DNA of 64,000 nucleotides, taken from contig NZ_CP132333.1 of the NCBI RefSeq assembly GCF_030758935.1, positions 3,596,992 through 3,660,991 on the forward strand. The letters are read 5' to 3'. The stretch is from Geothrix sp. PMB-07 (GTDB lineage: Bacteria > Acidobacteriota > Holophagae > Holophagales > Holophagaceae). The notes under the pieces were generated by a model. It ran no database searches. It was not told where the DNA came from and saw nothing but the letters and a program-made list of their open reading frames with translations. The position numbers and the translations under genes were made by a program. Of this stretch, positions 32,974-38,846 are shown one piece after another. Numbering within the stretch: the stretch's first letter is position 1; each line of letters opens with the position of its first letter.

Positions 32974-33084
32974 GCGTTATCCAGAAAGGTGGAGGGAAAG
33001 GCCCTGTGAAACCTTGGCAACCTGCTTACGCAAGGTGCCAATTCCTGCCCCCGGCATGTCCGGGGGGAAGATACCGAATGTTAC
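32974..33084 (+). promoter_or_regulatory. SAM-I (S-box) riboswitch upstream of the MTHFR-ferredoxin-metH block
   Basis: The conserved S-box core is present: ATCCAGAAAGGTGGAGGG, then CCCTGTGAAACCTTGGCAAC, GGTGCCAATTCCTGCC and a 3' GATAC. No terminator follows. Instead GGATGC (33105-33110) can pair with GCATCC (33137-33142) directly before the ATG at 33143, suggesting SAM-dependent control of translation start. Other sequence between 32851 and 33142 shows no gene. Confidence 0.93.
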
Positions 33085-33142: not shown

Positions 33143-35011
33143 ATGACCCATCCCACTTTCAGGCAGGCCCTTGAAGCTGGCGAGTGTTTCCTCTTCGACG
33201 GAAGCACGGCCACGGCCCTGCACGACCGCGGCATCACCCTGCAGCGCAGCTTCGAGGAGTGCAACCTCAAGTCGCCGGATCTGCTGCTGGCCATCCATGG
33301 CGAATTCCTCGCCGCGGGCGCCACGGTGCTCACCACCAACACCTGGGGCGCGGGCCGCCTGAAGCTGGCCGCCCGGGGCCTGGAGGGCGATCTCGACGCC
33401 ATCAACCGCGCCGGCGTGGAGCTGGCCAAGCGCGCCATCGCGCAGCAGAACTCCCAGGCCTGGGTGGCGGGCTGCATCGGCCCGCTGGGTGTGCGCATCG
33501 AACCCTGGGGGCCCACCTCGTACGACGAGGCCCGCGCCACCTTCCGCGAACAGGCCCTGCCCCTCATCGAAGCGGGCGCGGACCTTCTGGTGCTGGAGGG
33601 CTTCGAGGATCTCAACGAGATCCATCAGGCCATCCTCGCCGTGCAGGAACTCAGCGATCTTCCCATCGCTGCACTCATGACCACCAACGAGGATGGCCAG
33701 GCTCTCTTCGGTGCCGAACCCGACTGGTTCATCAAGCAGCTTGACGGCTGGGGCGCCGACATGGTCGGCCTCATCGGCGGCAACGGCCCCGCGCCGCACC
33801 TGCGCCTGCTGGAACGTCTCAAGGCCGTCACCGCCAAACCCATCGCCCTCATGCCCAACCCGGGCCTGCCTCACATGGTCGACGGCCGCCTCATCTACGG
33901 CGCCAGCCCTGAGTATCTCGGCGGCTTCGCGGGACGCGCTCTCGCTGCGGGCGCCCGGGCCGTCGGCGGCTGCAGCGGCACCACGGCGGCGCACATCCGC
34001 GCCATGCGCAGCGCCTTCCGCCAGGAGCGCGCCTTCGTGCAGGGCGGTGGCGGCTTCGAGATCAAACCCCACGAACAGCCGCAGCCCGAGGTGCCCTTCC
34101 CCTTCCGCAGCCGCTTCAGCCTCAAGCTGGCCCAGAACGAGTTCATCCACACCGTGGAGCTGGTGCCCCCCAAGGGCATGGAGTACGACAAGCTGCTGGC
34201 CAAAACGCGCCAGTGCCGCGCCCTGGGTGTGGATGCCATCAACGTGCCGGATGGCCCCCGCGCCATGGCGCGCATGAGTGCGCTGGCCACGGCCCTCATC
34301 ATCGAGCAGCAGGTGGGGCTGGAGACGATCCTTCATTACGCATGCCGCGACCGGAACCTGCTGGGCATGCAGAGCGATCTGCTGGGCGCTGCGGGCCTGG
34401 GTTTGCGCAATCTCCTGGCGGTTACAGGCGATCCACCGAAGCTGGGGCCGTACCCTCAGGCCACGGCTGTCTTCGATGTGGATGCCATCGGCCTGGTGAA
34501 CATGCTCAAGCGCCTGAACACGGGCCTGGATCTGGGCGGCGCCAGCATCGGCAAGCCCACCTCGTTCAGCGTCGGCGTCGGCGCCAATCCCGTGGCCGCC
34601 GACATGGAGCGCGAGAAGGCCCGCTTCCGCTACAAGGTGGAGGCTGGCGCCCAGTGGGCCATCACCCAGCCCGTCTTCGATGCAGAGACCCTCTTCCGCT
34701 TCCTCGACTTCACGGAGTCCCTGGACAGCAAGGGCGGCCTGCCCATCATCGCCGGCATCTGGCCCCTCAAGAGCCTGCGCAATGCCGAGTTCATGGCCAA
34801 CGAGGTGCCCGGCGCCTACGTGCCCAAGTCGGTGCTGGCCCGCATGGCCAAGTGGCCCAGCGGCGAGGATCAGCTGAAAGAAGGTCTCGACATCGCCCGC
34901 GAAGTCATCGAGCTCATCCGGCCCCGCGTCCGCGGGCTGCAGCTTTCCGCGCCCTTCGGCCAGGTCGAGCTGGTGGCGCCCCTGCTGCCCAAACTGGAGG
35001 CCCCATGGTGA
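33143..35011 (+). CDS. Methylenetetrahydrofolate reductase fused to a degenerate homocysteine methyltransferase domain
   Basis: A 622-residue YitJ-like fusion. Residues 1-305 are a homocysteine S-methyltransferase barrel (FLFDGSTATALH; NTWGAGRLKL). Residues about 325-620 are the MTHFR barrel (VELVPPKGMEY, LLAVTGDPP, GVGANP, WAITQPVFD), which reduces 5,10-methylene-THF to 5-methyl-THF. Zinc-dependent methyltransferases of this fold use three cysteines; here the first is Gly212 (GLIGGNGP where MetH has GLNCATGP) and the third is Ser278 (GGCSGTT where MetH has GGCCGTT), leaving only Cys277. The N-terminal half is therefore unlikely to be a normal methyltransferase. The stop overlaps the ferredoxin gene by seven bases. 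Confidence 0.9.
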   Translation: MTHPTFRQALEAGECFLFDGSTATALHDRGITLQRSFEECNLKSPDLLLAIHGEFLAAGATVLTTNTWGAGRLKLAARGLEGDLDAINRAGVELAKRAIAQQNSQAWVAGCIGPLGVRIEPWGPTSYDEARATFREQALPLIEAGADLLVLEGFEDLNEIHQAILAVQELSDLPIAALMTTNEDGQALFGAEPDWFIKQLDGWGADMVGLIGGNGPAPHLRLLERLKAVTAKPIALMPNPGLPHMVDGRLIYGASPEYLGGFAGRALAAGARAVGGCSGTTAAHIRAMRSAFRQERAFVQGGGGFEIKPHEQPQPEVPFPFRSRFSLKLAQNEFIHTVELVPPKGMEYDKLLAKTRQCRALGVDAINVPDGPRAMARMSALATALIIEQQVGLETILHYACRDRNLLGMQSDLLGAAGLGLRNLLAVTGDPPKLGPYPQATAVFDVDAIGLVNMLKRLNTGLDLGGASIGKPTSFSVGVGANPVAADMEREKARFRYKVEAGAQWAITQPVFDAETLFRFLDFTESLDSKGGLPIIAGIWPLKSLRNAEFMANEVPGAYVPKSVLARMAKWPSGEDQLKEGLDIAREVIELIRPRVRGLQLSAPFGQVELVAPLLPKLEAPW

Positions 35012-35289
35012 AGGTCCATTTCCTCCTTGAGGACATGCTGGTGGAGGCCCCTGCGGGCACCTCCCTGCAGGCCATCGCCGACGCGGCGGGGGCCGACATC
35101 ACTTTCGGCTGCCGCACCGGTTCCTGCGGAACCTGCCGTGTGCGGGTCAGCGAGGGGCTTTCCCACTGCAGCGAGGCGGGCCCCGAGGAACGCGATTTCC
35201 TGAAAGGCCTGGACGCCCCCGCTGACCAGCGCCTGGCCTGCCAGGTGGCCGTCCACGGCGACATCGCCATCGACTACCTGGGCCTTTAG
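35005..35289 (+). CDS. [2Fe-2S] plant/vertebrate-type ferredoxin
   Basis: A 94-residue protein whose cluster cysteines are Cys36, Cys41, Cys44 and Cys79 (FGCRTGSCGTCRV ... RLACQV), the Cx4Cx2C...C pattern of 2Fe-2S ferredoxins. The ATG overlaps the end of the MTHFR fusion (CCATGGTGA), so translation is coupled, and metH follows in the same direction. Likely an electron donor to MTHFR or for reductive reactivation of oxidised cobalamin in MetH; both are inference from position. It has no signal peptide. Confidence 0.9.
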   Translation: MVKVHFLLEDMLVEAPAGTSLQAIADAAGADITFGCRTGSCGTCRVRVSEGLSHCSEAGPEERDFLKGLDAPADQRLACQVAVHGDIAIDYLGL

Positions 35290-35405: not shown

Positions 35406-35423
35406 CGAACGAGAGGTTTTTCC

Positions 35424-38400
35424 ATGACCAGCATTGAGACCCTGCTCCGCGACAAAGTACTGCTGCTGGATGGCGGCATGGGCACGCAGATCTTCGCCCG
35501 CAAGCCCACCGCCGACGACTACGGCAGCGCCGCCCTGGAAGGCTGCGTGGACCTGCTGGTGGAGCGGCGCCCCCAGTGGATCCGCGAGATCCACGAGAGC
35601 TACTTCCGCGCCGGAGCCGACGCGGTGGAGACCAACACCTTCGGCGCGAATCCCCTGGTGCTCAGCGAATTCGGCCTCGCCGACAAGGCCTACGCACTGA
35701 ACGTGCAGGCCGCGAGCCTCGCCAAGGAAGTCGCCCGCAGCTTCGACCGCCCCCGCTTCGTGGTGGGCTCCGTGGGCCCCGGCACCAAGCTCATCACCCT
35801 GGGCCACGTGAGCTACGCCGAGCTGCTGGCTTCGTACCGTGTGCAGATGGACGGCCTGCTGGACGGCGGCGCCGACGCCATCCTCATCGAGACCTGCCAG
35901 GACCTGGGCCAGATCAAGGTGGCCGTGCGCGCCGCCAAGGAGGCCATGGCCGCAAAGAAACGCCGCATCCCCCTCTGGGTGCAGGCCACGGTGGAAACCA
36001 CGGGCACCCTGCTGGTGGGCTCCGACATCTCCGCGGTGCTCACCAGCCTGGAGCCCCTGGGCATCGATGTGCTGGGCCTCAACTGCGCCACGGGCCCCGA
36101 CGAGATGCACCAGCACCTGCAGACGCTCTGTGAGGCCAGCCCCTTCCGCATCAGCTGCCTGCCCAACGCCGGCCTGCCAGAGAACCGCGGCGGCCAGGTG
36201 GTCTACCCTCTCGATCCCGAAGGCTTCGCTCCCAAGGTGCTGCACGCAGCCAAGGAGTTCGGCATCGCCATCCTGGGCGGCTGCTGCGGCACCACGCCGG
36301 ACCACATCCGCGCCCTGGCGCCGGGCGTGGAAAAGCTCAATGCGCCGAAGCGCACCCCGAAGCTGGAGCGGAGCGCCGCCAGCCTCTACCAGAGCGTGGC
36401 CCTCAAGCAGGAACCCGCGCCCCTCATCGTGGGCGAGCGGACCAATGCGAACGGCTCGAAAAAATTCCGCGATCTGCTGGCCGCCGAGGACTGGAATGGC
36501 ATGATCACCTTGGCCAAAGAGCAGCAGCGTGAAGGCGCGCACCTGCTGGACCTCTGCGTGGCCTACGTGGGCCGCGACGAGGTGCGCGACGCCGACGAGC
36601 TGCTGAGCCGTCTCATTTCCCAGATCACCCTGCCGCTCATGATCGACAGTACGGAATTTCCCGTCATCGAGAAGGCCCTGCAGCGCTCACCCGGCAAGTG
36701 CGTCATCAACTCCATCAACTTTGAGGATGGCGAAACCAAGGCCAGGGCCATTCTCGATCTGTGCAAGACCTACGGCGCCGCCGTGGTGGCCCTCACCATC
36801 GACGAGCGCGGCATGGCCAAGAGCCGCGAACAGAAACTGGAAGTGGCCAAGCGCCTCTACGCCCTCGTCGTGGGCGAGTACGGCCTCGATCCCGGCGATC
36901 TCATCATCGACCCGCTGACCTTCACCCTGGGCAGCGGCGATGAAGAGTTCCGGGGCTCCGCCATCGAAACGCTGGAGGCCCTGAAGCTCATCAAGGCCGA
37001 GTTGCCCGGCGTCATGACCATCCTCGGCGTGAGCAATGTGAGCTTCGGTCTGAACCCCGCCACCCGCCACATCCTCAACGCGCTGATGCTCTATCACGGC
37101 GTGAAGCACGGCCTGGACATGGCCATCTTCAACGCCTCGAAGGTCATCCCCGTGGCCAAGATCGATCCCGACGACCGGAAGATCGTGGAAGACCTGATCT
37201 TCGACCGCCGCGCCGAGGGCTACGATCCCCTGAAGGCGCTCATGGCCCGCTTCAGTGACCGCAAGGCCGCCGTGGTGGACGACCACCGCGCCGACCTGCC
37301 CGTGCTGGAGCGCCTGCACCGCGGCATCCTGGACGGCGAGAAGCAGGCCATCCTGGCCGACGTGGACGAGGCCCTCAAGGACCACGATCCCCTGAAGCTC
37401 ATCAACGAAACCCTGCTGGCCGCCATGAAGGTGGTGGGTGAACGGTTCGGCGCCGGCGAGATGCAGCTCCCCTTCGTGCTGGAGAGCGCGGAGGCCATGA
37501 AGGCCGCCATCAAGCGCATCGAGCCGCACCTGCCCCGCGAATCCAACTACCAGAAGGGCCGCATCCTGCTGGCCACGGTGAAAGGCGATGTGCATGACAT
37601 CGGCAAGAACCTGGTGGACATCATCCTCAGCAACAATGGTTTCGAGGTGAAGAACCTGGGCATCAAGCAGCCCATCGAGGCCATCCTGAAGGAGTACGAA
37701 ACCTGGCCCGCCGATGCCATCGGCCTTTCGGGCCTGCTGGTGAAATCCACCGTGATCATGAAGGAGAACCTCCACTTCATGGAGTCGCTGGATCTCAAGG
37801 TGCCGGTCATCCTCGGCGGCGCCGCCCTCACCCGCGACTACGTGGAAGGGGACTGCCGCCGCAGCTACCGGGGCTCCGTCTACTACGCCGAGGATGCCTT
37901 CGAGGGCCTGCGCCACATGCAGGCGTTGGCCGCGGGTGACACCGCCGTGCCCGCACCGGTGTCGCCCACCCAGTCAGGCGATGCCATCACGGTCATCCGC
38001 CGAGGCAGCGCCTCCGTGCCCCTGACCGAAGCTGGCCAGAGCAGCTGGGTGAGGCATGACGCACACACACCCCATCCCCCCTTCTGGGGAATCCGCGAGT
38101 TAGCGGATTCCCCCGTGGACCTCTTCGAGCACCTGGACGACTTCGCCCTCATCCGCAACCGCTGGGGCTTCAGCCAGGGCGCCCAGAGCGACGAGGCCTT
38201 CGCCGCCGTGCTGAAGGACAAGGCCGAGCCCCAGCTGGCCTACTGGCGGGATCGCCTGGCCAAGGACCGCCTCTTCCAGCCCCGCGCCCGCTATGGCTAC
38301 TTCCCCGTGCGCGCCGAGGGCGACGATCTGTGCGTGTTCGATCCGGCCGATCCATCCCGCACCCTCACGCGGCTCCGCTTCCCGCGGCAGGCCGCCGGAC

Positions 38401-38846
38401 GTCGCCTCTGCATCAGCGACTTCTTCCGAGCCGACGCCACCGATGTGCTCGCCGTGCAGCTGGTCACCCTGGGCCAGGCGGCGGCGGATCACGCGGCCAA
38501 GCTCTACAAGGAAGACGGCTACGCGGACTACTTCGCCTTCCACGGCTTGGCCACCGAACTCACCGAAGCCTACGCGGAGCGCCTCCACGCCCGCATCCGC
38601 GCCGAGCTGGGCATCGCCGCCAAGGACCTGCCGGGCCGCGCCCTCTTCGCCCAGGGCTACCAGGGCTCCCGCTACTCCTACGGCTACCCCGCCTGCCCTG
38701 ATCTGGAAGGCAACGGTCCCATCCTGGACCTGCTGCGCGGTGCCGAGATCGGCGTGACCCTCAGCGAGAGCCACCAGATGGATCCCGAGTACAGCACCAG
38801 CGCCCTGGTGGCCTGGCACCCGCAGGCGAGGTACTTCTCCATCTGA
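35424..38846 (+). CDS. metH: Cobalamin-dependent methionine synthase
   Basis: A 1140-residue MetH transferring methyl from 5-methyl-THF through cobalamin to homocysteine. Domains in order: homocysteine/zinc barrel (Cys221 in GLNCATGP, Cys287 and Cys288 in GGCCGTT), pterin-binding barrel (LIVGERTNANGSKKF), B12-binding domain with DVHDIG (Asp722, His724, Gly727), and the AdoMet activation domain (GSRYSYGYPACPD). All three zinc cysteines are present, unlike the fusion upstream. The linker between B12 and activation domains carries an extra stretch encoding an 11-bp perfect palindrome (38086-38113). Start at the ATG after GAGAGG. Confidence 0.97.
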   Translation: MTSIETLLRDKVLLLDGGMGTQIFARKPTADDYGSAALEGCVDLLVERRPQWIREIHESYFRAGADAVETNTFGANPLVLSEFGLADKAYALNVQAASLAKEVARSFDRPRFVVGSVGPGTKLITLGHVSYAELLASYRVQMDGLLDGGADAILIETCQDLGQIKVAVRAAKEAMAAKKRRIPLWVQATVETTGTLLVGSDISAVLTSLEPLGIDVLGLNCATGPDEMHQHLQTLCEASPFRISCLPNAGLPENRGGQVVYPLDPEGFAPKVLHAAKEFGIAILGGCCGTTPDHIRALAPGVEKLNAPKRTPKLERSAASLYQSVALKQEPAPLIVGERTNANGSKKFRDLLAAEDWNGMITLAKEQQREGAHLLDLCVAYVGRDEVRDADELLSRLISQITLPLMIDSTEFPVIEKALQRSPGKCVINSINFEDGETKARAILDLCKTYGAAVVALTIDERGMAKSREQKLEVAKRLYALVVGEYGLDPGDLIIDPLTFTLGSGDEEFRGSAIETLEALKLIKAELPGVMTILGVSNVSFGLNPATRHILNALMLYHGVKHGLDMAIFNASKVIPVAKIDPDDRKIVEDLIFDRRAEGYDPLKALMARFSDRKAAVVDDHRADLPVLERLHRGILDGEKQAILADVDEALKDHDPLKLINETLLAAMKVVGERFGAGEMQLPFVLESAEAMKAAIKRIEPHLPRESNYQKGRILLATVKGDVHDIGKNLVDIILSNNGFEVKNLGIKQPIEAILKEYETWPADAIGLSGLLVKSTVIMKENLHFMESLDLKVPVILGGAALTRDYVEGDCRRSYRGSVYYAEDAFEGLRHMQALAAGDTAVPAPVSPTQSGDAITVIRRGSASVPLTEAGQSSWVRHDAHTPHPPFWGIRELADSPVDLFEHLDDFALIRNRWGFSQGAQSDEAFAAVLKDKAEPQLAYWRDRLAKDRLFQPRARYGYFPVRAEGDDLCVFDPADPSRTLTRLRFPRQAAGRRLCISDFFRADATDVLAVQLVTLGQAAADHAAKLYKEDGYADYFAFHGLATELTEAYAERLHARIRAELGIAAKDLPGRALFAQGYQGSRYSYGYPACPDLEGNGPILDLLRGAEIGVTLSESHQMDPEYSTSALVAWHPQARYFSI
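38086..38113. repeat. 11-bp perfect palindrome within the metH linker
   Basis: GGGGAATCCGC, loop GAGTTA, GCGGATTCCCC. It is translated in frame (WGIRELADSP) in a poorly conserved linker and shares its core with the atpD-atpC hairpin. Confidence 0.6.

Follow-up and report, generated by a model that had tools for sequence, protein, structure and literature searches.

The fusion gene and its neighbours

For the window, a stretch of 64,000 nucleotides from Geothrix sp. PMB-07, a SAM-I riboswitch (S box leader, 32974..33077; Rfam RF00162, 84.2 bits against a gathering cut-off of 44.4, E 4.8e-19), a gene encoding a homocysteine methyltransferase (HMT) barrel fused to an MTHFR barrel (HMT*-MTHFR fusion, 33143..35011, stop codon included; 622 aa), a gene encoding a plant-type [2Fe-2S] ferredoxin (fer2, 35008..35289; PF00111, E 3.7e-13) and metH, encoding full-length cobalamin-dependent methionine synthase (35418..38846; TIGR02082, 1224.5 bits), were found in this order on the forward strand. 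A gap of about 65 nt separates the riboswitch from the fusion start codon, and related loci of Holophagaceae carry the riboswitch upstream of the fusion too. The start of fer2 overlaps the stop codon of the fusion (GTGA), and metH begins 0.4 kb downstream of the fusion gene. The cluster cysteines of the ferredoxin (Cys 35, 40, 43 and 78) are invariant in 12 homologues, and MetH has a complete Pfam domain set with intact zinc cysteines and activation domain. In this genome (4.24 Mb, with 93% identity to Geothrix limicola), the fusion is the sole MTHFR, and MetH is the sole other match to the HMT half.

The fusion matches the model of the YitJ/SamT family (NF006396, PRK08645) over residues 6-618 with 617.9 bits, above the cut-off of 453, and shares its domain order, HMT followed by MTHFR. 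The N-terminal domain is assigned to PF02574 (residues 17-291, E 1e-49, 170.4 bits) and forms the zinc-less barrel HMT* (residues 1-299, 33143..34039), followed by a linker (residues 297-309, 34031..34069) and the MTHFR barrel assigned to PF02219 (residues 328-586, 34124..34900). As in YitJ/SamT, the MTHFR half carries the catalytic motifs, VELVPPKG, TGDPPK and TQPVFD being present in the translation; in an alignment of 42 sequences, E339 and D430 are invariant and Q509 is nearly so. By motif, we take these three residues to be the equivalents of E28, D120 and Q183 of E. coli MTHFR.

In the AlphaFold2 model, built on the same 42-sequence alignment, two confident barrels (mean pLDDT 86.5) are joined by the low-confidence linker (pLDDT below 50). 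With so floppy a linker and a pTM of 0.52, a fixed packing of the barrel on MTHFR is not predicted by this model. In Foldseek comparisons, the first barrel matched the homocysteine domains of MetH, MmuM and BHMT, with a TM-score of 0.85 by target length for apo MmuM of E. coli (5dmn), and the second matched bacterial MTHFR. A sequence search of the PDB returned no solved structure of an HMT-MTHFR fusion that includes the two domains together.

Loss of the zinc site

A first-pass annotation of this DNA had claimed that, compared with the downstream MetH, two of the three zinc cysteines of the HMT domain were replaced, by Gly212 and Ser278. The open reading frame translation and a BLASTP alignment of the fusion with MetH (32% identity) bear this out exactly, in residues and numbering: GLIGGNGP from residue 209 (G212) and GGCSGTT from residue 275 (C277, S278) in the fusion are aligned with GLNCATGP and GGCCGTT in MetH. 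With G212, C277 and S278, the fusion lacks the three-cysteine site of zinc-dependent PF02574 homocysteine methyltransferases. Judged by its sequence, it is a relative of YitJ/SamT and not a bifunctional member of that family.

By two phylum-scale genome searches and a genome-contig scan, 127 distinct full-length fusions were gathered, including 65 zinc-less fusions, 60 with all three cysteines (CCC) and 2 (L121 and L122) with GAA at the site. The site states of the zinc-less set were GCS (50), GCA (7), GSS (6), GDA (1) and ECA (1). The first zinc-cysteine position, lost at Gly212 (codon 33776..33778), is G in 64 of the 65 and C in all 60 CCC fusions, and the third, lost at Ser278 (33974..33976), is S in 56 and A in 9. 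Thus the first and third cysteines are gone in 65/65 zinc-less fusions and kept in 60/60 CCC fusions, and the replacement of CCC, the state of YitJ/SamT, by G-C-S in the Geothrix fusion belongs to a clade-wide loss. Since every close homologue (65 distinct) carries the substitutions, sequencing error and strain-specific decay can be ruled out.

Two refinements to the earlier description were obtained. The remaining ligand, Cys277 at the second position (33971..33973), is kept in the window but not clade-wide (C in 58, S in 6 and D in 1 of 65), so that all three cysteines are gone in 7/65 zinc-less fusions, and several fusions of Silvanigrellales are without any cysteine at the site (GGSSGT). 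In addition, the Asn before the first cysteine (N211), invariant in CCC fusions, is Ile in the window fusion.

No alternative ligand set was found among the clade members. When a replacement metal ligand was sought as a newly fixed C, H, D or E column, D247 alone was recovered, which lies outside the rim and where CCC fusions mostly have E or D; no substitute metal ligand has become fixed at the site.

Other residues of the pocket were retained. Glu152 (codon 33596..33598) is E in 65/65 zinc-less and 60/60 CCC fusions, and a phmmer alignment with Thermotoga maritima MetH (1q7m) places it at Glu146 and Asn239 at Asn234. Glu152 is presumed to contact the amino group of homocysteine, and the equivalents of Glu152 and Asn239 presumably take part in homocysteine and zinc binding. 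Similar contacts, by analogy, are those between MetE and homocysteine (PMC539065).

In enzymes of this kind, zinc binds and activates homocysteine (PMC539065). Since two of the three ligands are gone, none has been replaced and several Silvanigrellales have no cysteine at the site, zinc-dependent methyl transfer by the fusion barrel is very unlikely on the sequence evidence. Continued methylation of homocysteine by the barrel, metal-free or at an atypical metal site, would draw on Glu152, Asn239 and Cys277, which remain in the window protein; however, the leftover candidate ligands vary within the clade as far as the cysteine-free GGSSGT proteins, and HMT-fold enzymes of the MetH/BHMT type are known to use a (Cys)3Zn site (PMC539065), making such activity extremely improbable.

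Distribution and origin of the zinc-less fusions

The zinc-less set consists of fusions from Holophagaceae and Silvanigrellales (Fluviispira, Spirobacillus and relatives). In a tree built with the zinc-site columns omitted, it formed one clade with an SH-aLRT of 100. Its sister group was made up of CCC fusions from the search of Fluviispira's phylum (support 97), and Holophagaceae were nested inside the zinc-less clade. The tree came from a rapid search and has a few long branches (L124, L120); the order of the outgroups is therefore unsure, but the cysteine-less clade itself is fully supported.

The nested position of Holophagaceae is probably due to lateral transfer. On the simplest history, the zinc-less fusions originated once, beside Bdellovibrionota fusions: the zinc site was lost in a Bdellovibrionota-like lineage, and Holophagaceae later received the operon by transfer. 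The MetH identities agree with this history: MetH of the window is 56-66% identical to MetH of Silvanigrellales and of genome G443, and mostly 33-50% identical to that of the other Acidobacteriota tested. The GAA state of L121 and L122, on a long branch, is a separate loss, in genomes with an extra canonical MTHFR and a different gene neighbourhood.

Some individual loci deviate from the common form. The most divergent zinc-less fusion of Holophagaceae (L183 in G300, 459-2288; GLSEGQGP/GGCAGV) is also the only one, among those with enough downstream sequence, without adjoining fer2 and metH. In G448 (L166, 4795-6626), HMT* and MTHFR are encoded in two overlapping open reading frames with the frame change at a run of A, an arrangement that could reflect a genuine split, frameshifting or a faulty assembly; as this is a single draft assembly, the split was set aside as proof of a self-standing barrel.

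Constraint on the emptied barrel

The 65 zinc-less and 60 CCC fusions were compared column by column, a fixed difference being defined as different residues present in at least 85% of each set. Fixed differences were observed in 8 of 615 columns, namely A21S, Y55F, C212G, V214N, A260G and C278S in the barrel and A418G and T452V in the MTHFR half. Of the six barrel switches, four (A21S, C212G, V214N, C278S) are found at the catalytic rim, following beta1, beta6 and beta8 (hypergeometric p 0.008). The rim is the most conserved part of the barrel, with an entropy of 0.52 versus 1.08 elsewhere (p 5e-6). Asp19 is kept in 59/65 and Asn239 in 51/65 zinc-less fusions, and columns 211 (I/N/D) and 214 (N/S/T) are variable in this set.

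A strongly conserved and specifically remodelled rim, with four switches fixed in a glycine-rich pocket (NGGNGP, GGCSGT), is what might be expected if the barrel had taken up a different, metal-free reaction on an amino acid or another small molecule. However, the rim has gained no fixed acid, base or nucleophile, positions 211 and 214 are variable and residue 277 is S or D in some members, and such new chemistry is decidedly improbable.

Relaxed selection gave no clear sign in p-distance ratios, dN/dS or entropy. The ratio of HMT to MTHFR p-distance, across bands of MTHFR identity, was 1.2-1.6 in zinc-less versus 1.1-1.5 in CCC fusions, and the pairwise dN/dS was about 0.22. The HMT/MTHFR dN ratio was 1.05 in CCC versus 1.59 in zinc-less fusions, a weak comparison in which CCC pairs are distant and synonymous sites near saturation; selection on the barrel may be mildly relaxed. 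From the conservation of the rim, the similar relative rate and the dN/dS of about 0.22, we infer that the site has been rebuilt without metal and that the domain has not been abandoned.

The barrel might alternatively be a dispensable domain in slow decay, held in place by its fusion to an essential MTHFR, in line with a zinc site lost once in the clade and a second time independently in L121/L122. Against this, the rate relative to MTHFR is not clearly raised, the rim is the best conserved region and the barrel frame is intact across 65 homologues of two phyla, so that decay is very improbable. The same data (the PF02574 match, the conserved rim and the intact frame) agree with the first-pass description of a barrel otherwise well kept in an intact gene, and do not describe a change peculiar to one strain with frame decay.

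The ferredoxin and MetH

Operon structure was counted over loci with at least 900 nt of downstream sequence, fer2 being sought within 900 nt and metH within 1500 nt. The order fusion-fer2-metH was observed in 61/62 zinc-less fusions versus 0/57 CCC fusions, where the zinc-less set represents one clade and not independent events. Thus the zinc-less fusions are embedded in a fusion-ferredoxin-metH operon, whereas the CCC fusions sampled have none. The zinc cysteines of MetH are intact in the genomes with zinc-less fusions. Many genomes with CCC fusions also have a full MetH, which weakens MetH redundancy as the whole cause of the zinc loss.

In G443, fer2 and metH adjoin on a contig different from that of the fusion, which is CCC. 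The ferredoxin-MetH pair therefore predates the zinc loss or is independent of it, which weakens the case for a ferredoxin dedicated to the zinc-less barrel. Judging from its position in the operon, the ferredoxin probably feeds electrons either to the MTHFR flavin or to the reactivation of MetH. By gene arrangement, G443 ties fer2 to metH, while in Sporomusa carbonis a ferredoxin adjoins yitJ (PMC12003927), a neighbourhood that by analogy points to the MTHFR flavin instead.

These arrangements also bear on whether the barrel could hold MetH or the ferredoxin beside MTHFR for local passage of methyl-THF or electrons. The conserved gene order, the overlap of the fusion stop with the fer2 start in the window and the ferredoxin next to yitJ in Sporomusa carbonis would suit such docking, but G443, where fer2-metH stands without the fusion, indicates that the ferredoxin goes with MetH and not with the zinc-less barrel, and the conserved patch is the pocket rim rather than a demonstrated interface. 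Docking or channelling is rather improbable.

In three Holophagaceae genomes (G260, G292 and G324), the fusion, metH and any PF02219 MTHFR are all absent together, a pattern that a single functional unit would predict, although gaps in the assemblies may play a part. In the cultured strain Geothrix campi SG10 (L058, 6001-7700; the same region in L022), the fusion frame runs from about residue 550 of the MTHFR half into the last ferredoxin codons and a stop, with metH after it; the C-terminus of MTHFR and nearly all of fer2 seem to have been deleted. In other Acidobacteriota (G382 C1:1523471-1526862 and G208 C2:18879-22437), MetH is seemingly split into a separate homocysteine-domain gene and the remainder.

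Proposed role of the barrel

For the zinc-less fusion, the barrel is, on balance, probably a metal-free domain, dead in methyl transfer and kept on MTHFR for structural or ligand-sensing purposes, while MetH carries out methylation. The N-terminal barrel would no longer be able to activate a thiol for methyl transfer; ordinary purifying selection would maintain it as a non-catalytic portion of the one MTHFR that the cell has. The C-terminal half, with its kept residues, would convert methylene-THF to methyl-THF; MetH, two genes downstream, would transfer the methyl group to homocysteine at its own intact zinc site; and the ferredoxin between them would supply electrons to MetH reactivation or the MTHFR flavin. 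Since an amino-acid cradle (Glu152 and mostly Asp19 and Asn239) and the conserved rim remain, a structural or binding module is most likely: the emptied barrel could be a structural or assembly module, or it may take up homocysteine, methionine or a related compound but not react with it, possibly tuning MTHFR. A purely structural role leaves it unexplained that conservation within the barrel still peaks at the catalytic rim.

The first-pass annotation had proposed a new role for the domain, regulatory, structural, delivering methyl-THF to MetH, or a different chemistry. A changed role is well supported: the zinc site has truly been lost from a barrel that is otherwise retained, and the loss is ancient and fixed in a clade of two phyla. 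The proposed roles are narrowed, a structural or ligand-sensing one fitting best.

Allosteric sensing is a serious sub-case of the non-catalytic module, in which the emptied barrel would bind methionine, homocysteine, SAM or SAH and feed back on the fused MTHFR, as a counterpart of the SAM-sensing domain of eukaryotic MTHFR. The cradle and rim are conserved despite the lost catalysis; YitJ/SamT of B. subtilis has been described as an AdoMet:homocysteine methyltransferase joined to MTHFR (PMC6302742), and the ancestral pocket may have met both ligands; and eukaryotic MTHFR carries an appended SAM-inhibited domain (PMC5995969, PMC11018872). In Holophagaceae, however, transcription is already under SAM control through the riboswitch, and allosteric sensing is held only tentatively. 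A wider proposal, that the dead barrel is a metabolite-sensing regulatory domain of a bacterial MTHFR, with an origin separate from that of the SAM-sensing domain in eukaryotes, and that it moved between Bdellovibrionota and Acidobacteriota together with the ferredoxin-MetH operon, is on the whole unlikely.

Relation to known systems

The likeness to eukaryotic MTHFR, a catalytic barrel with a second, non-catalytic domain, holds if the sensor reading is right; there the regulatory domain is C-terminal and described as unique to eukaryotes, whereas the Geothrix barrel is N-terminal and its regulation putative. The homocysteine domains of MetH, MmuM and BHMT (PF02574) share the fold and most pocket residues with the Geothrix barrel, but keep all three zinc cysteines and are active thiol methyltransferases.

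By analogy, the best precedent for retaining a homocysteine barrel whose metal site is gone would be the N-terminal barrel of MetE. This homocysteine/zinc barrel first became a second domain, then had its metal site disabled and persists metal-free, one former zinc cysteine being retained in most sequences (PMC539065). The MetE barrel, however, arose by internal duplication within MetE and has lost its homocysteine determinants, whereas the Geothrix barrel, joined to MTHFR, retains the Glu and the conserved rim. MetE has no detectable sequence homology to the MetH-type barrel, and the likeness is therefore one of analogy.

The YitJ/SamT fusion family is already known, and the zinc-less clade lacks the site on which its homocysteine methyltransferase activity depends. 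No report of zinc-less YitJ-type fusions was found in a literature search, which is not proof that none exists. Since the fusion passes the PRK08645 equivalog cut-off, it would be annotated as bifunctional, but one of these activities is very likely missing throughout the clade, and pathway tools would mistakenly assign a second homocysteine methyltransferase to these bacteria. The natural series of a zinc site intact, lost and lost again elsewhere on a fused MTHFR raises the question of what the appended barrel does for MTHFR, including whether a domain joined to a bacterial MTHFR can control it.

MesB-like proteins of Chloroflexales are a further reported case of a lost zinc site (PMC7857596). 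The second, independent loss, of all three zinc cysteines (GVQGTLGP/GGAAGF), concerns HMT-MTHFR fusions from a different family of Holophagae (L209, 7841-9664, and L210, 7008-8831, from G198 and G372), in a neighbourhood with no obvious methionine genes.
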